A stretch of 64,000 nt of DNA from Plicaturopsis crispa FD-325 SS-3. Lineage: Eukaryota > Basidiomycota > Agaricomycetes > Amylocorticiales > Amylocorticiaceae. The position numbers and the translations under genes were made by a program. The notes under the pieces are model-generated. The model ran no database searches. It was not told the origin of the DNA and worked only from the letters and a program-made list of their open reading frames with translations. Below are positions 2,950 through 50,614 of the stretch, in pieces. Location: assembly GCA_000827205.1 (NCBI GenBank), contig KN832560.1, forward strand, positions 260,259 through 324,258. Direction: 5' to 3'. Within the stretch, counting starts at the first letter, position 1; each line of letters begins with the position of its first letter.

Positions 2950-5900
2950 TTATGCCTTGCGGGCGCCCCTTCTGTTGGGCAGTTTCTTGATGTTTCTGTT
3001 GGCAGCAGGTGGGGCCGCTCCGATCGTGAACAGGGATCCACTGGTCGAGGGCGCGGAGAGACCTTGAGGAGCATTGAACGGACTTGTTGTTGGCGCGCCG
3101 CCACCAAAGGTGAAACTACCGCCCCCGCCACTTGGCGTAGTCGGGGTCTGCACAGGAAGCGTCGAGTTCCCATTAGCGGGGGAGGCAGGTTGGCTAGATC
3201 CGAAGGAGAATGGGTTGCTCGGTGCAGCAGTCGGTGTCGGGGCTGCAAAAGAGAAAGATGGCTGCTGAGCAAAGGTAGACGGACTATTGGGCGCAGATCC
3301 TGCATTCGAGGTAGCCTGGCCAAATGGATTGGCGTTACCCGTATTCGATGAAGGGGCACTTCCGAAGCCAAAGGATGTGCCGGTCGTTGTCAATGTTGGC
3401 GCAGGCTGGCCGAAGGAGAACGGACCTGACGACGAAGGTCGTCTTTCGATAGGTTCGGGGGCCGTTGGCTGGCCGAACGAGAAAGGCCCGCCAGTCGATG
3501 GTCGGGGCTGTTCAGTCTCTGGTTTGGGAGGACCAAATGAAAACCCACTTCCAGCAGCTGAGGGTGGGTTAGACTGCTGTCCAAACCCGCCAAATGCTGG
3601 CGGCTTAGCCTCCAATTTGGTGTCCAGCTTAGGACCGAAAATGTTCGATGTTGATCCGCTTGTAGACGGTGCACCGAATGAAAATGGCGAGCTCGCATTT
3701 GTGTTCCCACCAAACAACGAGCCTGACGTCGACGGTGCAGAAGCGCCAAACGAGAAACCAGTAGACGCAGGCGCCGACACTTCCTTGCTCCCGTTCAGGT
3801 TTATGTCCCTTGTGGGACTCTCCTCCATACTGTATTCATTAGTCTCCTTCCTAGGTGGCGTCACCGGTCTCGCGGGTCCGCCACCAAAGGAGAACGATGA
3901 GGAGCTACCCGCGGTAGTCGATTGGGCATTGCTGCTCGCCCCGCCGAAAGAGAAGCCCGTCGCCGGTGCGGCAGCGGGAGCGCCAAAGCTAAACGGTGAT
4001 TTGTTCTCAGCCGCAGCTGGGGGTGTCGCTGGAGAAGCACCGAACGAAAAAGGCGTCTTCGACGTGTCTTTATTGGTGGTAGTCGCAGTTGGCACTGAGC
4101 TCGTAGAAGGCTGACCAAACGAGAACCCACCACCAGCGCCAAACAACGGTTTCGGCGCACTATTGTCAGGAGTGGCGGCAGTTTGACCAAAGGAAAATGT
4201 CGATGCTAGGGTTGGCTTAGATGCGTCCGTGCTTGGGGCGACGTTCGTGACGGAGGGAGCAGTACCGAACCCAGTAAAGGAAGGTGCAGAAATACCTGGA
4301 GTGGGTCCAAAGAGCGGAGGCGGCTTTGTGGCACCGTCTGCGGGTTTGGGCTCCTCAGTCTTGGGTAAGTCTACGGGTTTTGGGGCACCGAAAGAAAACG
4401 GAGTCGTTGCTTGTTCAGCTGGTTTCGAGCTGGAAGGCTGAGCACCACCAAACAGCGGCGAGGCCACCTGCACCTTGGGAGGTTCCTGTGAAGCAGGAGG
4501 TGCCCCAAACAATGATGTCGGGGCGGGTGTAGATCCGAACACAGAAGTAGGGGCTCCGCCAAACAGCGAAGGCGTCGGAGGGGTTGGCTTCTCGGCAGCT
4601 TTGCTGTCCCCCTCCCACAACGGGTTCTCTGCATCCTTGGTAGGCGGTGGCGGTGTGGAAGCGGCGGAGCTCGATAGAGCAGGTGAGTTGGCAAAGAAGT
4701 TCGGGATACCGGAAGGAGTGGCAGGCGGTGCCGCTGCTATTGGTGCGATCGGTGCGATCGAACTGGATGAGGACCAAGGCTGGGACTCGGGCAAAATCTG
4801 TGGGGGAGGCTGCAAAGTGGGCAATGTAGATGACTGAGGTTGCGGATCCTGCTGTGATGCCTGCGAGGTGGATGCCGACTCCGTTTGTTGCCGCGTTGGC
4901 TCTTCTTTCTGGGAAGGTGCTGCACCAAAGATGACAGGCGGCTGCGTCTGCACTGGTTTAGAGGGAGGCGCACCAAAAGAGAAGGGCAGAGACGGGATAG
5001 GCGGCTCCTTGGCGTTACCATCCTGCTCGATTTTCGGGGGCTGAAAAATGTTCAAGATTTTGTTAGGACTGCTACGCGATGGGAGTGTCGGAGCAAATAG
5101 ACGCACCTCCTTTGCAAAGCTAAATCCAGCAGGAATTTCAAACGCAGGCGCTCGCTTTTGAGCTTCGTCAAGCTCTTTCAACTCTTTCTCTCTGCGACGC
5201 TCTGCCTCATCCTCCTCGTCAACATCCTCAATGACTGCGCCTCGGTCACCGTTGGTAGGTCCTGCGCCCATGAGGTCGTCCTCGTCATCAGAGCCAGCAG
5301 CTGAAAAGCGGTTCTTTGAGGCAGATGGGCGGGAAATAGGGCGCGCTATAGGGTTGTGATTTCTACGAGTGCGGCCAACGCGAAGAGAAGAGCCGGAGGC
5401 TGCAGATGGGGCCGGTGGTAGGTCGGGCTTCGTTACAGGTATAGGCGGTGGCAGAGGCGCTTGTACAGGTACGGCTGGGCGATCCTCCTCCTTCTCAGGT
5501 GAAGGACCTTGTTCCTCTTGTTCCTCTAACCGTCTTCGTGCTAGCAGTTTCTTCATGCCTCCCTCACCTGCGTAGGGCTTTGTCCGGTTAATATCCTTCG
5601 CCGCCTTTTCCTTCTTGTCTTTCTCGCCCTTCTCGCCCTTGACCTTTTTGCCCTTCCGCTTTCTCCGACTTTTCGAGTCCTCGGTACCGTCATCCTCCAT
5701 ACCCATGCCGACCCAAAACCGATCTCCTTTTGACGCGCGGAATATACTTGGAACACTGTTGCCTACTTCAGATGCCCCCGCTGAGAAGGAGGATCGAAGC
5801 CGTGTAGGAAGCAATGGAGTCTTGTATATATCTAATTCATGGAGAGCACGTTCCGCGGCATTGGCATTGGCAGGACCTTGCATGTCGGATAGAGGACGTG

Positions 5901-6932
5901 CCGGAGCAGTACCAAAGAGAGTGGAGTGCTGGCGAACGGGGGACCGTGTCTGTATCACCGTTAGTGTGCATTTAGACTTAGACACGAACAAGAACATACG
6001 CTTCGGTAGTTATCAACTAGACCACCCAAGGTTTGCTGACTGTGATTGGTGCCGGATTCTGCTCCTCTTGCCTGTCCATGGCCCGAAAGCCCTTCCGAAG
6101 GTGGCCGTATGAAGGTCGGTTGAGCCCGAAGGGCGTTCAATGGAGGTGGGTCCGTTCCTTCTCTACTCAATGCCCTCTGTCCCTGATTAGACTGCGAGAA
6201 TGACGGCTGAGAAGGTGCACTAGCTGCGGGAGCCGGAGTCATAGTGCGCATACGGAATGGCGATGGCGACGGTGCGTGAGTAGTTTCTAGAGGGAGTGTC
6301 TGCGCGTCACGCGTAAACGGCTTGCCGGTGAATGACAGGTTCGACCGTGGCTGCGACGAAAATGAACCAGAGGTGGTGAACGACATACTCGAAGACTGCG
6401 AGTTCGGGAACGCAGGTGGGTCCATCGACATTGTACGCCCTAACGCGCGACGCGGGGACACTGTTTGACGGCCAGTGCCAGTATCCATGCGTGTGTCCAT
6501 GTCGCTGAAGCTACCATGCCCAAAAGACATTTGCTGGAAGGCGGTGCGGGGTGGGTCGAGATAGCCCTGTTGCTGTTGAGGCGGCGAGTATACCTGGCTC
6601 TGGAAATTGAACGGCGCATCGACGGACGCGGTTGTTCGATCCGGGCTATCCAACCTCATCCTCTTTGTTCTCCCGTCCCCTGAGGCCGCTGCGCTCTCCC
6701 CTGCATCGACCTGAGCTGGTGCAGGTTCATCGCCCACCCTCCTCCTCTTCCCATTGGTACTATCATCTGCGAACTCGGACTTTGAGTCGGTAGCGAACCA
6801 TGAGAGCGGGCGCGTGACGATGTTCTTGAGTGTGCCGAAAAGCGAAGACGATTCTGATCTTCGAAGGGGTTTGCCTCTTCGAGCAACACGAGCGGGATCG
6901 CGTTGAAAACGGGAACGGGAAGACGAGGACAT
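2950..6932 (-). CDS. FG-repeat nucleoporin, Nup1/Nup60/Nup153 type
   Basis: This is a nuclear-basket-type nucleoporin of roughly 1,290 residues. The N-terminus is basic and carries a likely amphipathic helix, SLFGTLKNIVTRPLSWFA at about residues 30-47, like the membrane-binding helices of yeast Nup1 and Nup60. A Lys/Arg-rich stretch and an acidic, charged region follow. The C-terminal 650 residues contain more than 25 FSFG and FG motifs in Ser/Thr/Pro/Ala-rich spacers, the binding sites for karyopherins. The chain ends with the basic KKLPNRRGARKA. Exon 1 starts at ATG 6932 and ends at 6003; an intron (about 5955-6002) joins NYRS to TRSPVRQHS. A second, 66-base candidate intron (5041-5106, GTGCGT to CAG with a CTAAC branch) is in frame and could be retained or removed. 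Naming by individual yeast Nup is uncertain because FG regions evolve fast. Confidence 0.85.
5041..5106 (-). other. In-frame candidate intron in the nucleoporin
   Basis: On the minus strand this 66-base stretch starts GTGCGT, carries CCTAAC 22-27 bases before the end and finishes TTTTTCAG. It holds no stop codon and its length is a multiple of three, so the reading frame is open with or without splicing. Removal joins FSFAKE to PPKIEQDG. Confidence 0.7.
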
Positions 6933-27617: not shown

Positions 27618-28799
27618 ATGTCTACTAGTCGCCGCACGTCTACTCGACTCAACAAGCCGCCTCCCCTACCCGCAGAGGAGCCAGCTGCGAATGCCCCTGT
27701 GCCAGCGCCTCTTCCTCCTGCATCCACAAATGAGACCACGAAAGCCAAACCGCGAAAGCCCGGCCGACCGAAAAAAGCTCCCGCGGAAGAAACACCTGAC
27801 AGCGGCACAGCCAATCTTCAGCCAGCTGCAGGTGGAGACACATCTACTGGATTGCACCCACCTTCTACGCCACTCCCTGCACCGGCAGCAACGACTGGCG
27901 GGGCAAGACGGAGGCCCGGTCGGCCGAGAAAAGCGGTGGCAACAACCCAGCCTCCTAGTGTTGCCGCCAATGCCCAGCCAGACTCCACCGAGCCACCAGC
28001 ACCATCTACACCACTTCCTGTGCCCGCAACTTCCACCGGAAAGGCGGCACCTGGCTCTGCTGGGACAAGACAGAAGCGTACCCGTGCCAATAGCGGCACA
28101 GACACAAACGTCCCACCACGGAATAGCAGCAAGCGCCAAAAGGCTGCGAGCACGGTAGCGCCCATTCAAGGGGCCGATCATGACTCTCGTGACCGACCTG
28201 AGGGAGCGTCAGTATCAGAGGCTGATAGAAGCAGAGAGGAGACGAGGAAACCTGCGCGATCACCACTTCCTGACCGCCTCCACCGTAACACCCATCCCGC
28301 GAATCCCGTCTTCGAGTACACGCAAACAAGACGGACATTGGAGCAAGTGGCAGCAGACGCTCGCAAGAAGGAGGAGCTTCAACGGGAGATTGAGGAGCTT
28401 GAGGCGAGGAAGATAGCGATGGTAGCACAGATGGAGGCTGAAGATGCTATGGCTGAGGAGGAGGAGCAGCAGGCAGCAATCACCAACTTTGCAGACGTTG
28501 ACTTTGGCCCACCCGGTCATCAAGACCAAGTCGATATGCCTGGAAACGAGTCTATGAGCGACATTTCTGACGATGATGGGAAAAGAAGGGCTCCGAGGAA
28601 AAAAGGAAAGGTGCGTACCAAGCTATGTTGCTCGGACATTACTGACCCATATTCTTCAGAAGGAAAAGGGTCAAACACGAGCTGAAGTAGAGGCCGCTGT
28701 GCAGAAAAGGATGGCAGACATGGGACGTGAAAACTCTCCTAGAGGTATAGACTCGCCCACTGGTCGGAAACGCTCGATATCGGATGCAGGCACTGCCAA
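27618..28799 (+). CDS. AT-hook / coiled-coil protein, 5' half of an interrupted gene
   Basis: ATG 27618 opens MSTSRRTSTRLNKPPPLPAE. Two AT-hook-like cores, KPGRPKK and RRPGRPRK, lie near residues 43 and 98, implying minor-groove DNA binding. A predicted coiled coil (LEQVAADARKKEELQREIEE) and a basic, nuclear-localisation-like stretch follow. Intron 28611-28659 joins KKGK to KEKGQTRAEVEAAVQK. The exon ends SISDAGTA plus two bases of the next codon at a strong donor, GTAAGT, at 28800. Forty-nine bases into that intron the P-like transposon begins. The partner acceptor and the rest of the gene are at 37050 onward; the phase-2 donor and the acceptor give AAC across the junction and one open frame, so I read these as one gene. 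Confidence 0.75.
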
Positions 28800-28840
28800 G
28801 TAAGTAACATCTTCTCACGCTTTGATTGTCGACGTTCATG

Positions 28841-28848
28841 ACCTTGCT
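28841..28848. repeat. Target-site duplication, left copy (ACCTTGCT)
   Basis: The 8-base sequence ACCTTGCT directly precedes the left inverted repeat. The same 8 bases directly follow the right end of the second copy at 37026-37033. They do not follow the right end at 35182. Confidence 0.8.
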
Positions 28849-28887
28849 CAAGAGGAGGGCGGAAAAAAATAATCAGACGTCGTCCTC
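28849..28887 (+). repeat. Left terminal inverted repeat
   Basis: These 39 bases begin CAAGAGGAGGGCG and contain ACGTCGTCCTC at element positions 29-39. They pair with the complement of the right end at the positions given for the element. The next 270 bases to the transposase stop hold no gene. Confidence 0.75.
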
Positions 28888-29158
28888 GAGAATGCGAAGG
28901 ACCCCGAAAACTGGTTGACGGTGGTCCTTCCTTATTGAGAGCGCAAATTAATCAGCATTTACGCCCGAAAATTACCGTGAAAGGTATCGTTCCCCTGGCG
29001 GTAGATTGTTGGCCCGTCTAAGAGCCAGGACTTTTTGCCGTACGACGCGTACACAACGCGTCCACAGAACGTAGATACTACAAAACCTACCATACTACCG
29101 TTCATCAAAAAGCACAGAAAACCTACTGCGAGAATTTGAGGGCGTCACCGTATACCAC

Positions 29159-32100
29159 TCATTTCCGTCGTCGTCTCTTGGCTACCGGGTTCTCCGAGTC
29201 AGTTGCAGCTGTTGCGTGTTTCTTGCTGCGAGACCGCGTTGAATGTGAAGCTGCGGGTGCCCTGAAAGCTTCGGATGGACTAGGGAGTATCTTACGAGGT
29301 ATGTTGGAAGCGGGAATCTTCATCCACTCTTCTTCTTCGCGTGTGATCAGCATGGCGCGAGCGAGATCGTTAGGAATGGGAGCGCCGCTTTCGATTCCGT
29401 CGAACGAATGGCCGGGATGAGAACTACGGATGTGTTCGGGCATGTTGTATTTCCACACGGCAGTGAGGTATTTTGAGCCGACCGGGGCCTGACAGCCAGG
29501 GAAAGTGCATGCGATAGGGACATTGGTGCAGGGTGATGAATGGTTGGATACAAGACTGGGGCCATAATTGAATTTGCGAAAATGAATGCAGTTGCTGTGC
29601 GCCTGCGGGTGCTTTCCTTTGGTAAGGTAAACCTCCGAGCAGCTGATGATGCCCGCGCGACCACAAAATCCGCATGGCATCGGATGGCCAACCTAGTAGT
29701 TTGCGTTATATCATAGTCAGAACTTGTGATACTAGAAAAATCAGAAAATTGAAGTACCGGTCCACCTGGGAGACGTTCCTCGACACCTCGCATTCTGTTG
29801 AGAATGTGTTTTCCAACATGCAGTCGAGCCTTGCTTGAATCAACCTCCGTGAGGCACTGGTAGCAGCGGAACTTCTCGTTGGGAGCCGCCAAATGACGAG
29901 CTTCGAGGATTAAGGACCCTTCCTCCGCAATTAGAGCAGGTTTATCTGGCGGTAGCATCTGATTTAGGACACACTTTTTCCGGATGATTTAATGGCTCAC
30001 CATCAGTGCCCATACGGTACGGAAACATCTTGTTAGCCCGAAATGCAGGTAGCAGTGACAGCGCGTTCTGCGAATGGACGATATCCCACAGACGTGATAT
30101 AAGGACAGCACATTCCATGTCAGATACTTCCCATGTCAAGCCAGCGGTATTGAGATCGGCTGGGCGTTTGACTTCGGGAAGATAATCCTTGACATCCAGG
30201 ACACGGGGGTTAATCGGCTCGCAGAGATAGCTATTCATCGTGACGGCAAGGGTTTTGCGTAGATTTGCCTTGCCAACCGGCGAAGGGCCCTTCGATGCTT
30301 CTAAATCAAGTTTTACGAAGGCGCCCGTCCATATCCAGGTGTACGCCGGCGCCTGTCCTTCCGAGGCAGCAGCCTGAGGGTCATCGTGAGACTGCCCGCT
30401 AGGATTCATGTGTATCGAAGTAGCGGCAGCATGCTCCGTAGCATCCGCATAGTAAAGCGCTGTCGGCATGGTCTGCATGTCAAGGATTTGACCTGTCAGT
30501 TTGACTCCACCGGCTGGATGAGCTAGACTCCCGCTTTTCACCCGCGTAACTCTGATATCCTTCTCCCGGATTGCAATGCATTTCATAAAAGCGAGCGAGA
30601 CACAGTCGTCGCAGCAGATGAGGGTGGCATAGAGGTCTCCGACAACAAAACAATCGGGATCGATGATGTTGTCGGTATTCAAGAAATCGCGAGACTTGAG
30701 ATCCATTGTAAAGCCCTGTACACGGAGTGCCCGCTCATGAGACTTTCGAATATAATCCGGAGTGATGACTAGGCGGCAGATAGACGCTTTGTGGTATTTC
30801 TTCCCTTGGTATTCGATCCACGCGGACCGATCCTTTACTTCAGGGGGAGACGGAAGCGTAAGTGTAGGAGGATCTTCGAGAGCGTCTTCAAATTCTACAT
30901 GCTCCAATAAGTCTTCTTCAGTCATCGTCACGGTAGGAGAGTCGGGCGGCAAGTTCGGTGCGGGATGTTCAACTGGTAGCAAGGAATCGTGACTACCGAG
31001 CTCAGCACTGTACACATCGAGCTCTTCATCATCAAGGGTGCTGACAACAGCCTGAATATCCTCAAGGACATTAAGCTGCTCGGTTGTGCTAGATGGCTGC
31101 GTGGAGACGTCCGGTGCAGCCTGAGATGATGATGGTGATGATGGGGGTATAGGCTGGCCCGAACTAGGAGGCTCCCGCGACCTGTCGAAATCCGTCGAGA
31201 CTCCAGGATATACGTTGTTGCCAAAGGGTCTCATCAAATCAAGTTCACGGCTTTCATCGAAAAGGGTGTTGAAATCAGCAGTCAAGTTAATATGATGGAG
31301 AGCCTCAAGGGCAGCGGACTGGCCCTCGAGCCAGGCTGATTCTAAGTCAACATTATGAGCGACCACATCGCCAATCCATGACTCGGGGTTCAGATGATCC
31401 GCGCCCTCTGTCCTAGTTGTAGAAAGCCGTCGGTGACCTTCATCAAGCTCTGGGAATTGCGAAAGGATGGCGTCAATGTCAACCGCTGCGCCCAATCGGT
31501 CAGCTAGTTCCTTGAAACTGAAATTCGGATTGTGGCGCCCTTGCATGCGAAGCCGTCCAAAAAGCATCTCAAGGCGATCATCACCATCCCAGAATAAATA
31601 GAGAGGCTGCGTCCCATCCAGGTCTTGCTGTTTAGCAATGCAGAACATGATGTTCTTCACGGTAGTCTGCATGTCGCCGTATAGCTGATGGGGCATGAAG
31701 GCTCCGCGATATTCACGGAACAGAACAAACGACATATGCGCAAATTTGCTTAGCGACGTCACTTGCTCCGTGAGGGACCAGGTGGGAGAAATGAATGGAC
31801 GCATGAAGGCGGCGAACATCTCGCCTATAATATTTATGGCACGGATCTCCTGTAGCTCGGAAGGCGAGCAGGATGCGGTGGGAAGTGTCGAGATGGAGCT
31901 GACTGCCTCCAGAAGGTCGATGGCACGCGGAACGTCTTGTGCGTCAGCAGGATTCAACAGCATATCGATACCATGTGCTGTAAGATCATCACTCCGGCAA
32001 AGGTGCTGCCGCAGGGTTTCACGGTTGATGATGGTATTCCCAACTACCATCCCATCGAATGTACGTAGCAGGCGCCCTATCCCTATGATTCAACCGGTGT

Positions 32101-34659
32101 AAGTAACGGAGGCTTGAATATAAACCACAAAGAAACCTACGTTTGATCAAATGTTTCCAATCAAAACTCGCTGTAATGTCCCGGTCCCCCACTAGAAGGT
32201 TGAGCCCCGGTAAACGTCCGAGAAACTTATAAAGAGTATGCCTCGAGTCGATAGCACGCTTCATGAACATCCGGTGAACCATGGCGCGCCGCTCGGCGTC
32301 CCCGTCGGAGGCAAAACACCATATTGGACCAAAGTAGAGTGCACAGATATTGTACCATGCTTCGAGCACAGTACTCAGGATATCGGCTGATCCCTCCTTC
32401 ATCTCCTGTTTGCACGTCGACGAAACTAGGACCGGGTGCGCCCCGCGCAGAACTTTCCCAAATGAAGCTATAGCAATGACCGAAGCCTCTTTCCCGTAGT
32501 GGACAGTGTCGTTTGCGAGAGCTCGCGCAATCTTGACCGCAGACTCAAAAGTAGACAGCCGAACGTCGACCAGATGGCAGTGCTCCCGACAGAGTCCCCC
32601 CACGGAATCAAGATGGGGCAAGTAGCAAGCGACCTCTTCCTGGCTCACTTCGTCCCATAGCACAGATACACCGGTACGAAAGGAATGTGCCGCGGTTGCC
32701 TTTGGCATGATGACTTCACGCATGTTGAATGCGACATCGCTATATTTGGGCATACCGATGCTGGGCATTATGCGCACGAAGTGCTCCGCACGCTGCAGCG
32801 CGCGCACAGAAGGGAGGGCAATATAGTGACTCAACGCGTAAAGTAATTTCCGGCCACCGAGTCGGAGGACAAGGGTAGAAACAGCCCTGTCAACCTCCTC
32901 GTACCCTCGTGCGACATATGTCCCAACGAGGCCGTCCTCGATCTTCGAGACGATCTTCGAGACACTCGCATTCTCCTTAAGCGCTTGCCGAACGAGCTGC
33001 TGAAGCCGAGGAACATCTCCGGTTGCGACGGCCATGAGAAACCGCCGGTGATCGTCGAGCTGCTTGAGGAGCGACGCACATTTTTTCCCAACATTAAGGC
33101 TCTGTGAATGTATTAAGTGCATGCTTAGGGATACCAGGTAATGCGCGTGTACGTACATCAAGTCTTAAAAGGTGGATATCCTTGTTGCGGTCCCGAAGCA
33201 TGTCTCGGAGTTGCTCATAGGTGAGAAATCGATGGTTGGTATGAGGCGCAGCATCGCGGGCCATTGCAGCTAGGCGCTCGACGGTCTTGGTGAGATCTGC
33301 GCAATTCCGACATATCGCACCATGCGCGGATTGTCCCTCGCACACGTCTGACCGTACACGGAACTCTGTCCCATTCTTCTCCACAGCACAAAATTTGTAG
33401 CCGAGAGCGTTGAGAGAGAGGTCGTGGCGATGGAAGGGATATGTCTCGAAAAAATGATCGTTGGGCCAGTCGAGATGGATTCCTGGGCATTCGTACGTAG
33501 CAGGGAGAGCTTCGGGTGCATGGGAAGGTGGTGCGTCCGGGGAGGGACGGTGGGATGACGGAGAAGGCATCGAGTCAGATGAGGAATCACTAGCGATATA
33601 ATCAGAACGACACGGAGAAGAAGACGTGGCGAAAACTTACATTTCCATGTCGTATTCACCGCCGGCCATGAATTTTGACGGCGTTTCGATTTGAAATTCG
33701 ATGCGAGTACCTCGCGACGGTGATGCAGGTGGGGCAGTCCGAGCCCTCGACATTGAGCCAGAGGCTGTCGATGTGGAGGGGAAAATGCGATTACGGGCTT
33801 GTTGGGCTCGTGCTAACTCGAACCGTTGCTGACCCAGACGGCACAGCTTTCCCAGGGCATGGGAGGTCAAGGGCATCGTGTTTTTGTGGTACGACCCCGT
33901 CTGTATCCAAGTGCCGCAATACGGACATAGGACGCGTCTCTTGCCGTCCGTGCCATTGTTGTCCCACTCAAGATCATCTGCATTGAGTGAACGAGGTGAC
34001 GGTAAGGCTGCAGAGCCCAGATACGATGCAACGGAAGGTGGCCGTTGCAAAGTTGACGCATCGTCGTAGTACGACAGATGCGATGTGTCGGGATCTTGTG
34101 CAATGTCGACATCCATCGCATGCTGCGTGTCGTATAGATCAGAGGGGGCAAAATCGAGATTGACAGGGCTGTGATCCGAGGGGTACGGCAGCGCGTCGAT
34201 ATCCATGCTGTCAGTGATGAGGTTTTGGGGATCGGCGAAGTTGAACGCATCGCGCAAAGCTGGAATTGGAGGGGGCACGATGGGAAAAGGCTCCGGCTGA
34301 AGTGGACCAGCCATATCATGGGCATATACGAGCCCAGGATCGACAGTGGCCGGGGAAAATGGAGCTGAAGATGGCGAACCACGACGACTGGGTGTATGAG
34401 CCTCGGGCTCGAAAGGGGGGCGGATTCCGGGAGAGACCACATCCGTGTTCAAGCTTGAAACAAACGGCATGGTCTCGTCTAGCTCTGAAAAAAACAACGA
34501 GTTGATAAGCGGGGAAGGAGGAGGCGTCGCGGGCTGATCTGATGGATTGTCCAACTCCATGGCCACCGGTGAACCTTCGTTCTCGATGCTTGCAGGGACG
34601 TATATTTGCCACAGCAAAAGCGGCACGATCAAGAGCGTGCGGACCAGTGGTATCCGCAT
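29159..34659 (-). CDS. P-element-like transposase, about 1,750 residues
   Basis: The start at 34659 is the first ATG of the frame; MELDNPSDQP at 34560 is an alternative. The disordered N-terminus carries a zinc-binding motif CPYCGTWIQTG...HALGKLC near residues 250-280. Introns at about 33590-33640 and 33102-33156 join in frame. A second Cys cluster (CEGQSAHGAICRNCADL) precedes a coiled coil, then the transposase part: HYIALPSVRALQRAEHFVRI, SVLWDEVSQEE, IWCFASDGDAERRAM and, across an intron at about 32090-32150, ASFDWKHLIKR joined to IGRLLRTFDGMVVGN. The order D (LWDE), D (SDGD), D (FDWKHLIK) resembles the RNase H-like core of P/THAP9 transposases, whose last motif is FDPPHLxKxxRN; LLNPADAQDVPRAIDLLEAV recalls their following helical domain. 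The C-terminus has more Cys/His (CGFCGR, TFPGCQ) and ends VAKRRRRK. No frameshift was seen where checked. Family assignment is by motif order only. Confidence 0.65.
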
Positions 34660-35143
34660 CTCCCTGAGTTGAACGATTTGCGGCTCGAGCAGAGTCGAAG
34701 CCGCCGCTGCACGTCGTTTGCCCTAAGGTTCCCATGTAGGCAATCAGTACTGGCATTTAGGACGGACACTTGAAACACTCAACACACAGGCTTTGCAGAG
34801 TGAAGGCTAACGTGGGTTGCGACTGTTATCGATGGACGCAACTTGCGATTCAGTCGAAGTCGAGGGCGTGGAGGAAGGAAGCCTCGAGCTCATCCATGTG
34901 CGTGTCGCGTGCGTCCGAGTCATCCTTGACCCGCGCCACATAATCTCTCCCTCTGTTTATCGGGTTTCAATCCATTTTCTTCACTGAAAATTTGGGGCGT
35001 GCAAAGGTGACACACGCCTCGATATACAGTGCAATTGTGGTGAGACAATACAGTAGAGAAAAAAAGATGAGCGGTCGTTGAGCAAAATCGCCAAAGTGGC
35101 TGGAAAACGGACCCCGGGGACCACTATTGACCCACCTCATGCT

Positions 35144-35182
35144 GAGGTCGACGTTCCCGATTCTGATCTCGCACTCCTCTTG
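35144..35182 (-). repeat. Right terminal inverted repeat
   Basis: Read on the minus strand from 35182 this starts CAAGAGGAGTGCGAGATCAG and carries ACGTCGACCTC at positions 29-39, matching the left end. The next plus-strand bases, CCTATTTT, do not match the left target duplication. Confidence 0.75.
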
Positions 35183-35202
35183 CCTATTTTCTTGTATAAT
35201 TC

Positions 35203-35651
35203 ATGGCGTCTCGTCAAGGTGGAAAACTCAAGCCTCTGAAGGTCGGCTTCATGCTCGAGATCCAACTCTGTTAGGATCTGACTGTGATCTGCTACATCGC
35301 GATGGATCGCATACCCTTAGGCACCCAAGAAGGAGAAGAAAGAGGAGGACGAGGACGAGAAGGCCTTCAAAGAAAAGAAAAAGGCTGAGGCTGAAGCGCT
35401 CAAGGCTGCACGCGAGAAAGGTGAGCTTGTCAGTCCTGAGTTGCTGTTTTCCACCTGTGGACTCACGTCGCCCTTGTAGCGGCAAAGGGTGAGCTTTTTG
35501 TTAACGCTATCATGCATACGCGCAACCTAATACGTCTATTGCTAAAGGCGGAGCCCCTGGTGGCGGAATCAAGAAGTGAGTGAAGCCTCACATCCTCGTA
35601 CTTTTTCTGCGGGATCTGCTGACACTATCCTCCAGGTCTGGCAAGAAGTAG
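35203..35651 (+). CDS. TMA7: Translation machinery-associated protein 7
   Basis: Five small exons, separated by four introns of about 55-80 bases, encode 64 residues: start MASRQGGKLKPLK, a Lys/Glu-rich helix EKAFKEKKKAEAEALKAARE, and the family end GGGIKKSGKK with the stop at 35649-35651. TMA7 is a tiny conserved protein that co-purifies with ribosomes; its length matches the family exactly. Its ATG is only 20 bases from the right end of the P-like transposon, which would leave almost no native 5' leader. This locus probably does not belong here: the flanking evidence places it in a mis-joined piece (see findings). Confidence 0.9.
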
Positions 35652-36134
35652 AGATCGATGGCTGTGGTCTACGAAACCATGTCTGGAGCCTCTGTTTTCA
35701 CTTTTGGTTGTACCGCATCACACGACCTTCCATGGCTGCGTCGCGTGAACATGCAACGTTTCGACGAGTAGCGTCCGATGAATGTCCTATCACAGTAGAT
35801 TGGGCGCGCTTCAAGTACTTCAAGTAACCCAGTACCTTTTGGTGTATTTTATACAGTGTCTTCTACCCTTGGACAGTCTGACAGTGAAAGCGGAGGATGT
35901 CCGACGGTCGTCCTGCCGAAGTCCCGGGTTGAAACACAGAGCAAAAACGAGGCTAAGATGAAATAATTACGTGGAGTTGTGTTGGACATTTGAAATTTCG
36001 GGGGTAGACTGTAGGACTGGTAAGCTGAGCTCGCTGTTCGGAACGACGAGGACGACGACCACGACGGCGACGACTCGGACGAGCAAAAAGTAAACGACAG
36101 GTTGTTTGGGTGCCACAAACAGAAATGTACTCAT
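35652..36134. other. Sequence between TMA7 and the gap, no confident gene
   Basis: The stretch should include the TMA7 3' end. From about 36020 to the gap the plus strand is open and Arg-rich in one frame and Asp-rich in another (GACGACGACCACGAC), so it could be the edge of a coding exon, but the gap cuts it off. Confidence 0.4.
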
Positions 36135-36154
36135 NNNNNNNNNNNNNNNNNNNN
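36135..36154. other. Assembly gap, 20 N
   Basis: Twenty undetermined bases separate two contigs. The sequence to the right starts abruptly inside a copy of the P-like transposon. Confidence 0.99.
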
Positions 36155-37025
36155 CATATCATGGGCATATACGAGCCCAGGATCGACAGTGGCCGGGGAA
36201 AATGGAGCTGAAGATGGCGAACCACGACGACTGGGTGTATGAGCCTCGGGCTCGAAAGGGGGGCGGATTCCGGGAGAGACCACATCCGTGTTCAAGCTTG
36301 AAACAAACGGCATGGTCTCGTCTAGCTCTGAAAAAAACAACGAGTTGATAAGCGGGGAAGGAGGAGGCGTCGCGGGCTGATCTGATGGATTGTCCAACTC
36401 CATGGCCACCGGTGAACCTTCGTTCTCGATGCTTGCAGGGACGTATATTTGCCACAGCAAAAGCGGCACGATCAAGAGCGTGCGGACCAGTGGTATCCGC
36501 ATCTCCCTGAGTTGAACGATTTGCGGCTCGAGCAGAGTCGAAGCCGCCGCTGCACGTCGTTTGCCCTAAGGTTCCCATGTAGGCAATCAGTACTGGCATT
36601 TAGGACGGACACTTGAAACACTCAACACACAGGCTTTGCAGAGTGAAGGCTAACGTGGGTTGCGACTGTTATCGATGGACGCAACTTGCGATTCAGTCGA
36701 AGTCGAGGGCGTGGAGGAAGGAAGCCTCGAGCTCATCCATGTGCGTGTCGCGTGCGTCCGAGTCATCCTTGACCCGCGCCACATAATCTCTCCCTCTGTT
36801 TATCGGGTTTCAATCCATTTTCTTCACTGAAAATTTGGGGCGTGCAAAGGTGACACACGCCTCGATATACAGTGCAATTGTGGTGAGACAATACAGTAGA
36901 GAAAAAAAGATGAGCGGTCGTTGAGCAAAATCGCCAAAGTGGCTGGAAAACGGACCCCGGGGACCACTATTGACCCACCTCATGCTGAGGTCGACGTTCC
37001 CGATTCTGATCTCGCACTCCTCTTG
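36155..37025 (-). repeat. Exact 871-base copy of the transposon right end
   Basis: This is identical, as far as I could compare by eye, to 34312-35182 at a constant offset of 1,843. It holds the first 116 codons of the transposase gene (from 36502), its promoter and the terminal inverted repeat. Identity stops exactly at 37025, where ACCTTGCT follows. Confidence 0.92.
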
Positions 37026-37033
37026 ACCTTGCT
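37026..37033. repeat. Target-site duplication, right copy (ACCTTGCT)
   Basis: These 8 bases follow the right inverted repeat of the second copy and equal the left duplication at 28841-28848. Confidence 0.8.
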
Positions 37034-37049
37034 CGTCTTCCCACCGTAG

Positions 37050-38686
37050 CCTCAAGAGGCAGAAACCGTCTTTCCCTTCGGGTCTTGTCTCTGGCTGGCA
37101 AAACAAACTCAATCCACGCTCGAACTCCTCAAAGCACACGAAGTCGAATTCAACAACGAGCGTGCAAAAGGAATCCGAAAAGCTGCCAGTAGGTGGCTTA
37201 AACGACGACGACGCATATGCGACCCCTCCGCGAGCCTCGAAAGACGCGCAGCGAAGCGGCCAGAAGCAGACAAATGCCACGGTTAGCCGCTCTGCCATAT
37301 ACTTCAAGTTCTTACTGATCAAGACTCATGTGCATATAGCCGGTGCTCGCTGATGTTACCTCGACTCGCCGCGATGCATCTCGTCGAAACGAGGTTTGCG
37401 TCTGCTATCTTTACCTAGAGGATTGTCGATGCTGACTCTGTTTCATCCAGATGATTGAGATTTCTACCTTCGATTCAGATGGAGATGATACGTCCGCAAT
37501 ACCTGCAAACCTTCAACATCGGAAGGAACCCAACTCCGATAAGAAGGGCAAAGCCACAGCCCGGGGAAAGCCAGCCAAAGCCACCAGCTCAAAGCATGCT
37601 GTATCGCGTAACCAGCCAGAGCAGGCGACTTCCACGAGTTCTGGCACCCACGGTGCACCTCAACCTGAGTCCTCTTCGCATCACGGCAGTGGTCATAGCA
37701 GTGATACAGCTCGGTTGCCTGAGTTCGCTGTCACGGCTTGGCCAACAGTGTTCCTCCCTACCCTCTACCATCGTCTCGGAGCGTCCGAGAAGCCTTGGGA
37801 CGATTTCTCGAGAGGCCCGAATGTTGTTCCCATCATCCAGCAGATTGTCAACATCTGTTGGCCCGGAACAACATACCGCGTAAAGTGGGATGTGGGGATT
37901 TGTGCGCAGGTACGTATCTCAATGCTTTCCTAGCCTTTCCGACGCTCACACTACGGTTAGGCTGTCGCCCGTACCAGCGAAAAGCGCAGCCTTATCGGCA
38001 GCAGGGCGATTGAAGTCGTTTCAGCCCATTTCGAACGGCCAGAGTATGCAAACAATCCGAAGGCCATCGCAGAATATGCCCAGTACGCGACGAGAGAAGA
38101 CGGGCCCGCAATATATAGGACACCAACCCCGATAGATTGTGTTGCTGAACCCGGATCCGATGACTACGTGGTACGTGCCCTTTTTCATCGTCAACTCTTC
38201 GTAGAAATGTTCACACAAGTATACAGGAGCCTGACGGACTGTTTGAGTCCCATTTCATCATCGAGACATTGAAACCCTTCTTCAAGCTCACCAAAGCATC
38301 ACGCGGAGATTACGGGTACATGAACGGTGCACTTGCCATGGCCGCTGCCGCAGTAAGCATGCTTTTTCATGCACTCTTCATGTTTGGCTGAGAAGAGATA
38401 GGTTGAACGAGCATTCTTCATGTTTCATACGGGTGTCCGCATCAAGGCAGGCACATTCTCCCGTGATAACGGTGCAGCGGATATGGTCGACGACTACATG
38501 TTCACTGCCCGCAAAGTCACGGACAGCCGATGGAAGCAAATCCTCGATCGGTGCGGACTTCAAGTCGAGGAGCAGAAAAAAGCTGTCTTCATTGCGCCCT
38601 CCCTGCGCAACAAGCGCCGTGAACTCTACATTCCCCGCAGCAGCCCTCAACCTGAGTGTGGCTCCGATTCCGAGGACCGCGATTAA
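37050..38686 (+). CDS. DUF6532-like protein, 3' half of the interrupted gene
   Basis: There is no suitable ATG at the start: the first exon begins at an acceptor (CCACCGTAG, ending 37049) with the base that completes the codon left open at 28799. It reads LKRQKPSFPSGLVSGWQNKL and continues, via introns at about 37281-37330 and 37393-37450, through VLADVTSTRRDASRRNE to MIEISTFDSDGDDTSAIPAN. After a disordered stretch comes a folded domain: WPGTTYRVKWDVGICAQ, LFESHFIIETLKPFFKLT, YMNGALAMAAAAVERAFFMF and WKQILDRCG. This resembles DUF6532, a domain common in Agaricomycete genomes and often near mobile elements. The stop is at 38684-38686. Joined to 27618-28799, the protein would have two AT-hooks, a coiled coil and this domain, about 800 residues. 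Family name is tentative. Confidence 0.65.
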
Positions 38687-49049: not shown

Positions 49050-50614
49050 ATGGCCTCCGCCGGTACTCCCCCCAGCTCTACAGGCGACGAACGCCAGCCA
49101 GAGACCACAGGCGACGACCGCCAAACCATCTTCAGCCCAGAAACATGCACGCGCAAGGGCCTGTGCCCGGTGACCCAGCTCCGGCACCAGAGCGAGCCCT
49201 TCGAGAGCCACTCGCTCTACTTTGAGCAGCACGGCGCGGGCCCGACTAAGGTTGTTTTCATCATGGGGTGCGTTTACTCCTTCATTCCCTCCCTTCCTCG
49301 TTCCCTTCCTTCCTTCCTCCATACTTCCTCCCTCCCTCCTTCCTTCCTCCCCTCCTCCCTCCTCCCTTCCATAATCCACAACTGCGCCGTAATACTCACT
49401 GGTGCGCACTTCAGGCTGAACGGCAGCTCCTTCGGCTGGGAGTACCAAGTCGCTTATTTCGGGCGCCTACCCGAGTATTCGGTGCTGGTGTTCGATAACA
49501 GAGGGGTGGGGCACAGCGGCGCGCCTAGGGGGCCTTACTCGTACGTCTACCACCTATGCTTACTGTGGTTTCGTGTGCGATGTGTTCTCGGTCTCGGCGC
49601 AGCTGATGTGTGCTATGCTACATGATGTGTGCTCGTGGCTGATGTGTGCTCGTGAAAATCCAAGGACGAGCGAGATGGCGAAGGACGTAGTCACGCTCCT
49701 GGACTACGTCGGGTGGACGGAGAAGCGCGACTTGCACGTTGTGGGGATATCGCTGGGCGGGATGATTTCGCAGGGTACGTCTATGCGTCTATGTGTGTGT
49801 GTCCGTGGAGTGGTTGACTTGGGGTGGGTGTTGACTTGAGTGGTGGGTGTTGACTTGCGTGGTGTGACAGAGCTGGCGACGCTTATACCCGAGCGGATCG
49901 TCTCGCTCACGTTGGCTGTGACGACGCCGGGTGGGAGGCCGTGGACGAACCTTCCATCGGTGAGCGCCCCTTTTTACGCCGTCCAGCGGTGCGCTGATTT
50001 CGATGTAGGTGAAAGGGATAAAGACTCTAGCACGGTCAGCTTTCTCTCTTATCCATATCGACTCTTGAGTTTACTGAAGAAGAGCAACCCTTGCAGACTA
50101 CTGACGATAAAAGAACCCGAGGTCAAGATACCCCTCTTGCTAGACATGGTCTACCCCCGTGCATGGCTAGATGCCAAAGCGGCTGACGACCCGCAGGGCA
50201 GGACTAACGAGCAAGTCCAGACCGACGTGCGTCCCCCCATTCCATCCTATACGCTCGCCCCATACTCACGTACACACACAGTCCCTGCACGCGCGCATCG
50301 CCATCACAACCCCGCAAACCGCCCTCGGCGCCTTCTCCCAAATGGCCGCCGGCCTCACACACCACGTCGCCCCCCCGCGCCTCGCCGCCATCTCCTCTCG
50401 CATCCCCAAGGTCACCATCGTCACCGGCGACGACGACAACCTCGTGGACCCCAATAATAGCAGGCGCATGAAGGCGGCGATGCGGGAGGCGGAGCTGGTG
50501 GAGTGGGAGGGGACGGGGCATGCGATACATGGGCAGGATGTGCGGAGGTTTAATGGGCTGGTGGAGAGGACGGTTGGGGAGGGGAAGGCGAGGTTGATGG
50601 AGATGTCTGCTTAG
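49050..50614 (+). CDS. Alpha/beta hydrolase
   Basis: ATG 49050 opens MASAGTPPSSTGDERQ, a disordered start of about 30 residues. The core begins KVVFIMG, joined by an intron to LNGSSFGWEYQVAYFGRLPE, the oxyanion-loop region, then YSVLVFDNRGVGHSGAP. The nucleophile elbow is VVGISLGGMISQ (Ser in GxSxGG). The acid is probably in TGDDDNLVDPNNS and the histidine in EGTGHAIHGQD, so the Ser-Asp-His triad is complete. The stop is at 50612-50614. Introns interrupt between these motifs; the first one contains a long CCTT/CCTC tract. Substrate cannot be inferred; esterase or lipase-like and epoxide or ketone-ester hydrolases share this layout. Confidence 0.85.
49278..49375 (+). repeat. Pyrimidine tract in a hydrolase intron
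   Basis: About 100 bases consist almost only of C and T in CCTT, CCTC and TTCC units. They lie inside the first intron of the hydrolase gene, upstream of its acceptor at about 49412. Confidence 0.8.

Follow-up and report, generated by a model that had tools for sequence, protein, structure and literature searches.

A P-like transposon in an intron of a Plicaturopsis crispa gene and a probable assembly join between two of its copies

In the assembled genome of the mushroom Plicaturopsis crispa FD-325 SS-3, an open frame with AT-hook-like motifs and an open frame with a DUF6532-like region lie on the same strand, about 8.2 kb apart, with a transposase gene between them. This raises the question of whether the two frames are halves of one gene interrupted by a transposon and, if so, what the DNA between them consists of. 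The window analysed here is a stretch of 64,000 nucleotides of contig KN832560.1 (C7:260259-324258), and the genome searched with it comprises 33.2 Mb in 49 contigs. The explanation that we favour, and regard as likely, is that a P-like transposon of 6334 bp is inserted in intron 2 of one gene, that an inverted copy lies about 70 kb away, and that the assembly cross-joined the two. It is carried by a perfect target duplication for each copy, by inverted repeats, by the identity of the two copies wherever their ends can be compared and by a host that is one gene. The kind of event is ordinary.

The interrupted host gene

When the interval is left out, the host gene is modelled with eight exons and 832 amino acids. 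Its parts, in window coordinates, are:

27618-28610, plus strand: exon 1, open frame, with PGRP twice (residues 48-51 and 100-103), an AT-hook-like motif
28660-28799, plus strand: exon 2, open frame, ending in phase 2 (AA, then GTAAGT)
28800-28840, plus strand: left part of intron 2, with the donor GTAAGT
37034-37049, plus strand: right part of intron 2, with the acceptor CCGTAG
37050-38686, plus strand: exons 3-8, the DUF6532-like C-terminal half, open frame; PF20149 match below cut-off
37050-37281, 37340-37393 and 37451-37909, plus strand: exons 3-5
37961-38170, 38227-38352 and 38402-38686, plus strand: exons 6-8

With the interval left out, the donor at 28800 and the acceptor at 37049 (CCACCGTAG) close in phase 2 to an AAC codon, the frame is open on both sides and intron 2 measures 65 bp; the six other introns measure 49-58 bp. 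An earlier annotation made from the letters alone (the sequence-only reading) had placed the donor and the acceptor at these positions and had predicted the 65-base intron, the AAC codon and the open frame, all of which we find in the 832-residue model.

We searched for homologues of the whole host protein among proteins of about 457-1456 amino acids (8000 candidates scored). The sole match, and the only homologue with both halves in the protein database, is a Russula compacta protein (P0001, 543 amino acids), which shows 29% identity over host residues 237-726 and so runs across the junction at residues 377/378. A second search with only residues 585-832 gave no match among 1571 candidates; since P0001 was missed as well, a search with the C-terminal half alone is insensitive. 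In the P. crispa genome, three paralogs (C12 at 66.5 kb, C6 at 577.6 kb and C23 at 243.5 kb) carry both halves, in order and on one strand, with a phase 2 intron of 70, 73 and 84 bp at the equivalent place; the intron borders were set by eye on alignments that run over introns, and one of two genome searches gives the N-terminal half for C6 and C23 only. This small family combines an N-terminal half that is AT-hook-like and coiled-coil-like with a DUF6532-like C-terminal half. Judged from these homologues, the AT-hook half and the DUF6532-like half are a single host gene.

No P. crispa protein with both halves was found within the length range of the first search, so the deposited annotation probably lacks the joined host protein and seems to keep the halves apart. 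This would suit two neighbouring genes, one for an AT-hook protein and one for a DUF6532-like protein, with an intron that is coincidental, and the same can be said of the single both-halves homologue in the protein database and of the C-terminal domain search, which found none. P0001 crosses the junction, however, and the three paralogs share the place and phase of the intron, for which reason we rejected two separate genes as highly improbable. The sequence-only reading had correctly seen a transposon inserted in an intron of one gene, and the protein with both halves that it proposed to look for exists in Russula compacta, so that the halves are not always separate genes.

The domain names of the two halves are to be read loosely. 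The C-terminal half matches Pfam PF20149 (DUF6532) at E 0.085, with a score of 13.2 bits where the cut-off is 24 and over positions 48-179 of the 194 in the profile, and the whole 832-residue protein gave no DUF6532 match in a Pfam scan up to E 1. Hence, the likeness to DUF6532 that had been noted earlier is present as a match, but one below the cut-off. The AT-hook label consists of the two PGRP motifs, with no profile behind it.

Two copies and their target duplications

The interval between the two halves is described below with two copies of the element in mind, Y at the host intron and X about 70 kb away:

28841-28848: left target duplication, ACCTTGCT
28849-35182, minus strand: P-like transposon, 6334 bp, CAAGAGGAG..CTCCTCTTG
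29159-34560, minus strand: transposase gene, six exons, 1705 amino acids, identical to PLICRDRAFT_29388
35183-35190: CCTATTTT, target duplication of copy X, with its partner at the left end of X (C7:219256-219263)
35203-35651, plus strand: TMA7 host gene, Pfam PF09072, E 2.9e-22
36135-36154: assembly gap of 20 N
36155-37025, minus strand: 871-bp right end of copy Y, repeating 34312-35182 exactly
37026-37033: right target duplication, ACCTTGCT

By direct reading, ACCTTGCT stands at 28841-28848 and again at 37026-37033, and the terminal inverted repeat CAAGAGGAG begins just inside both, at 28849 and 37025. For 8-mers drawn at random from the window, a pair is identical with a frequency of about 2e-5. 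As ACCTTGCT is itself frequent genome-wide (553 + 532 occurrences in 33.2 Mb), what counts is its position exactly outside both inverted repeats.

The 8177 bp between these duplications (28849-37025) are not a single transposon, because they contain an assembly gap, an 871-bp repeat and the host gene TMA7. The element makes up 6334 bp and other DNA 1843 bp (23%), namely the TMA7 stretch (952 bp), the 20-N gap and a doubled element end (871 bp). The repeat is exact (34312-35182 equals 36155-37025), and its second copy starts at the edge of the gap; the real right end of the element is at 35182, followed by non-element DNA at 35183-36134. Thus, the duplications outside the inverted repeats are where the sequence-only reading had put them, but its single element of 8.2 kb shrinks to 6334 bp, since TMA7, the gap and the doubled end had been overlooked.

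A search of the genome with the element gave eight matches, of which five, at 73-76%, are pieces of related elements and three are at 100%: the whole of 28849-35182, the 871 bp at 36155-37025 (query 5464-6334) and 886 bp at C7:218370-219255 on the minus strand (query 1-886). Both of the 100% fragments adjoin N gaps. The last is the left end of copy X, in opposite orientation and next to a gap of 12126 N. Its outer flank, read in the direction of the element, ends in CCTATTTT, and the TMA7 side opens with the same eight letters, CCTATTTT, directly after 35182. When the flanks are paired correctly, two perfect 8-bp duplications result, ACCTTGCT for the AT-hook half and the DUF6532 half and CCTATTTT for C7:219256 and TMA7; these are two independent matches of eight in eight, each with a chance of about 2e-5. 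In the assembled contig, the left flank of copy Y leads to the right flank of copy X, and, by the duplications, the element at 28849-35182 has its left end from Y and its right end from X, with a body from either.

TMA7 is recognised by Pfam PF09072 with 79.6 bits against a cut-off of 27. The stretch at 35183-36134 is single in the genome, and a TMA7 family search of the genome found one place only, 35203-35651; this search works exon by exon, so that its counts are lower bounds and short exons elsewhere could be missed. By its duplication, TMA7 belongs to the X locus. The insertion of copy X lies 13 bp upstream of the TMA7 start codon (window 35183-35203), presumably in the 5′ leader.

As TMA7 stands between two right ends and inside the outer pair of ACCTTGCT, we considered a composite transposon in which two copies flank TMA7 and moved into the intron as a unit of about 14 kb, with the missing body of the second copy hidden in the gap. 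Yet the CCTATTTT next to TMA7 has its match at a left end in another place, which gives TMA7 an insertion locus of its own, no second TMA7 was found in the exon-wise family search, and about 5.5 kb of hidden sequence would not be expected to appear as a gap of 20 N. The composite transposon was rejected on the first two of these grounds and has very little probability left.

The copies are identical at the compared ends (886/886 and 871/871 bases); hence, they look young, and an assembler would struggle to separate them. Reads of X and of Y may be mixed in the compared ends, and a comparison of the two bodies is not possible. Since each insertion has its own duplication once the flanks are re-paired, a cross-join is the simplest reading, and the 8.2-kb insert is most likely of this origin. 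A cut-and-paste transposon would recently have entered host intron 2, with its transposase gene antisense to the host, and would have duplicated ACCTTGCT, the transposase cutting the target 8 bp apart and repair making the duplications; a second, inverted copy would have inserted upstream of TMA7 with its own duplication, CCTATTTT. The assembler may then have entered the shared body from the left flank of one copy and come out on the right flank of the other, which would place TMA7, the gap and the second right end between the two ACCTTGCT. Such a cross-join predicts an estimate for the second gap of 6334 - 6334 - 952 - 871 = -1823 bp, and a minimal gap of 20 N would agree with this.

The same junction could also be real. 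Ectopic recombination between the inverted copies would then have inverted about 70 kb, the AT-hook/element/TMA7 junction would be genuine and only the orientation of the scaffold would be wrong. The copies are indeed inverted relative to each other and identical at their comparable ends. Moreover, the assembled full-length copy carries exchanged duplications, ACCTTGCT on the left and CCTATTTT on the right, as does Galileo, a member of the P superfamily for which a passage of PMC2775673 describes exchanged duplications at Drosophila inversion breakpoints and inversion by ectopic recombination. If the contig is taken at face value, the locus thus resembles the Galileo inversions of Drosophila buzzatii in having inverted copies with exchanged duplications (PMC2775673, same part); unlike there, the exchange is here most likely an assembly join.

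The scaffold keeps the AT-hook half beside the DUF6532 half and the left flank of X beside the gap at X, and read pairs from a fixed inversion should contradict this order. Moreover, the 20-N gap fits a cross-join better, and exact repeats longer than the reads are a common source of joins of this sort. Because the scaffold order favours the uninverted state, we rate the inversion low and think it unlikely. Were it true, two nearly identical and recently active P-like elements would have turned round a chromosome segment of about 70 kb in a mushroom, with an exchange of duplications, and would have severed the host gene, perhaps in some nuclei of the culture but not in all.

Several points weigh against the favoured combination of an insertion and a cross-join. 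A real inversion of about 70 kb would yield the same junction; the cross-join is deduced from assembled sequence; and it is an assumption that 20 N is the minimal gap of the assembler. The 12126-N gap at X would then correspond to 5448 bp of element, 952 bp and about 5.7 kb extra. On the side of the host, membership in its domain family is weak (DUF6532, E 0.085), and splicing must span more than 6 kb in a gene with other introns of 49-58 bp. Three of its six other introns also lack a branch-like motif, and so the one at the interrupted intron is a weak hint. There, a branch-like TGAC core 23 nucleotides from the acceptor is retained together with the donor and the acceptor, its TG coming from the end of the element and its AC from the start of the duplication, and a CTGAT lies inside the element, 40 nucleotides from the acceptor (both as compared with the branch consensus). 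With donor, acceptor and branch-like core all kept, the host gene may still be spliced.

The transposase and related insertions

The spliced transposase is identical, letter for letter, to the deposited P. crispa FD-325 SS-3 protein PLICRDRAFT_29388, and its gene has no stops in its six exons and is antisense to the host gene. With the query counted, its family numbers 41 proteins; most are labelled as basidiomycete, and none (0/41) has a precomputed Pfam domain. The conserved residues are D601 (41/41), D717 (38/41), D765 and H768 (39/41 each) and E943 (41/41), and CxxC pairs occur at 212, 400, 1262, 1493 and 1535. The P signature, described in the relevant part of PMC8230255 as D, D, [C/D](2)H, E, is fitted by D601, D717, D765-H768 and E943, in a mapping that is our own and has no structural basis. 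The catalytic spacing of 116, 48 and 178 residues, the last of these separating the [C/D](2)H motif from E943, is roughly similar to the 73, 36 and 192 of the fly protein.

Thirty members of the 41-protein family were scanned with profiles, with matches accepted up to E 10; 22 families were listed, and HMMER filters drop most matches above 0.1. TNP-like_RNaseH_N appeared in two of the 30 members below the cut-off (E 0.21 and 0.24), both times exactly over the D601 strand, and the transposase of the element itself (P0002) had no match to it. A search of PDB with the family profile gave chance-level matches only (E 0.69 to 5.8). For a GTP-binding domain, there was no profile among the 22 families and no [NT]KxD or P-loop motif in the transposase. 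No THAP profile was listed for the transposase or the 30 members scanned; as THAP domains are restricted to animals according to the part of the review PMC7776569 that deals with them, this is compatible with a fungal P branch. A genome search for the PF21787 family gave no match, but its control matched nowhere either.

Two other superfamilies were rejected on the same scan, KDZ/Zisupton, for which no KDZ transposase profile was among the 22 families, and hAT, for which no dimerisation profile was. The fungal Zisupton/KDZ elements also make 8-bp target duplications, as stated in a section of PMC12730594, and differ in the profile that is missing here. With the P superfamily (the Drosophila P element, THAP9 and Galileo, and P-1_MLP and its relatives in rust fungi), the element shares 8-bp duplications and short inverted repeats starting with CA; unlike its members, it has a larger protein (1705 amino acids), no THAP found, no Pfam family above cut-off and a GTP-binding domain that is not recognised. 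In summary, the element is a P-like DNA transposon of low copy number, and it has probably been active in recent times. The P-like label of the sequence-only reading has support from the 8-bp duplications and from residues in the order D, D, [C/D](2)H, E; no curated profile exceeds its cut-off.

Insertions with this kind of end were read at eight sites, seven of which have perfect 8-bp duplications and the eighth a duplication agreeing at six of eight positions; one of the seven, at C2:990284, had been selected by filtering for the duplication. Those beyond copies X and Y are:

C4:1990822-1991313: short relative, 492 bp, same ends, perfect duplication AGATTAGT
C17:589182-589967: short relative, 786 bp, same ends, perfect duplication TCTGTCCT
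C7:726087-726832: short relative, 746 bp, same ends, TGATCACG and TGATCAAT, 6/8
C2:990284-998920: larger related element, 8637 bp, ends CAAGAGGCGTGCGG, perfect duplication ACTTATAC
C7:792662-794043: short element with ends like those of the C2:990284 element, perfect duplication CTACCTGG
C2:2420301-2421564: short element with ends like those of the C2:990284 element, perfect duplication CCCTCAAG

The first three are too short for a transposase gene, and the 8637-bp element holds transposase-like matches of 31-45%. At C18:336094-338202 lies a diverged transposase relative (40% identity). Its match is crossed by three stops, perhaps because of introns, and no pair of ends with duplications was found around it. 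The pattern CAAGAGGNGNSCG alone shows no copies, because its 37 + 31 occurrences show no enrichment relative to the 39 + 23 of the backward control; of its 68 sites, known elements aside, two convergent pairs were inspected.

The remaining window and what the locus means

Elsewhere in the window, 10 of the 16 open frames of at least 230 codons have no Pfam match at 0.001, all of them outside the host gene and the element; one frame without a match at this threshold, at 2953-6009 on the minus strand, has 1019 codons. A bacterial-type scan of the window gave no tRNA, and a comparison with Rfam gave no match either. A pyrimidine-rich tandem array of TCCT / CCTCCCTTCCTCC lies at 49278-49370.

For the reference genome, our reading would entail corrections, as the host gene is seemingly annotated as two genes or absent, TMA7, a conserved gene, is misplaced and the insert of 8.2 kb is really one of 6.3 kb. 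Full-length PacBio transcripts of P. crispa are described in a part of PMC4503453, and, hence, the splicing of a transposon of more than 6 kb in a fungus with introns of about 50 bp is directly checkable in them. Within the Dikarya, P elements have been published for rust fungi, as a passage of PMC3164196 sets out; for the Agaricomycetes, our literature search found no report, which says nothing about Repbase. The locus adds a P-like element from an Agaricomycete; its transposase gene is open, and its second copy is identical where the two are comparable.

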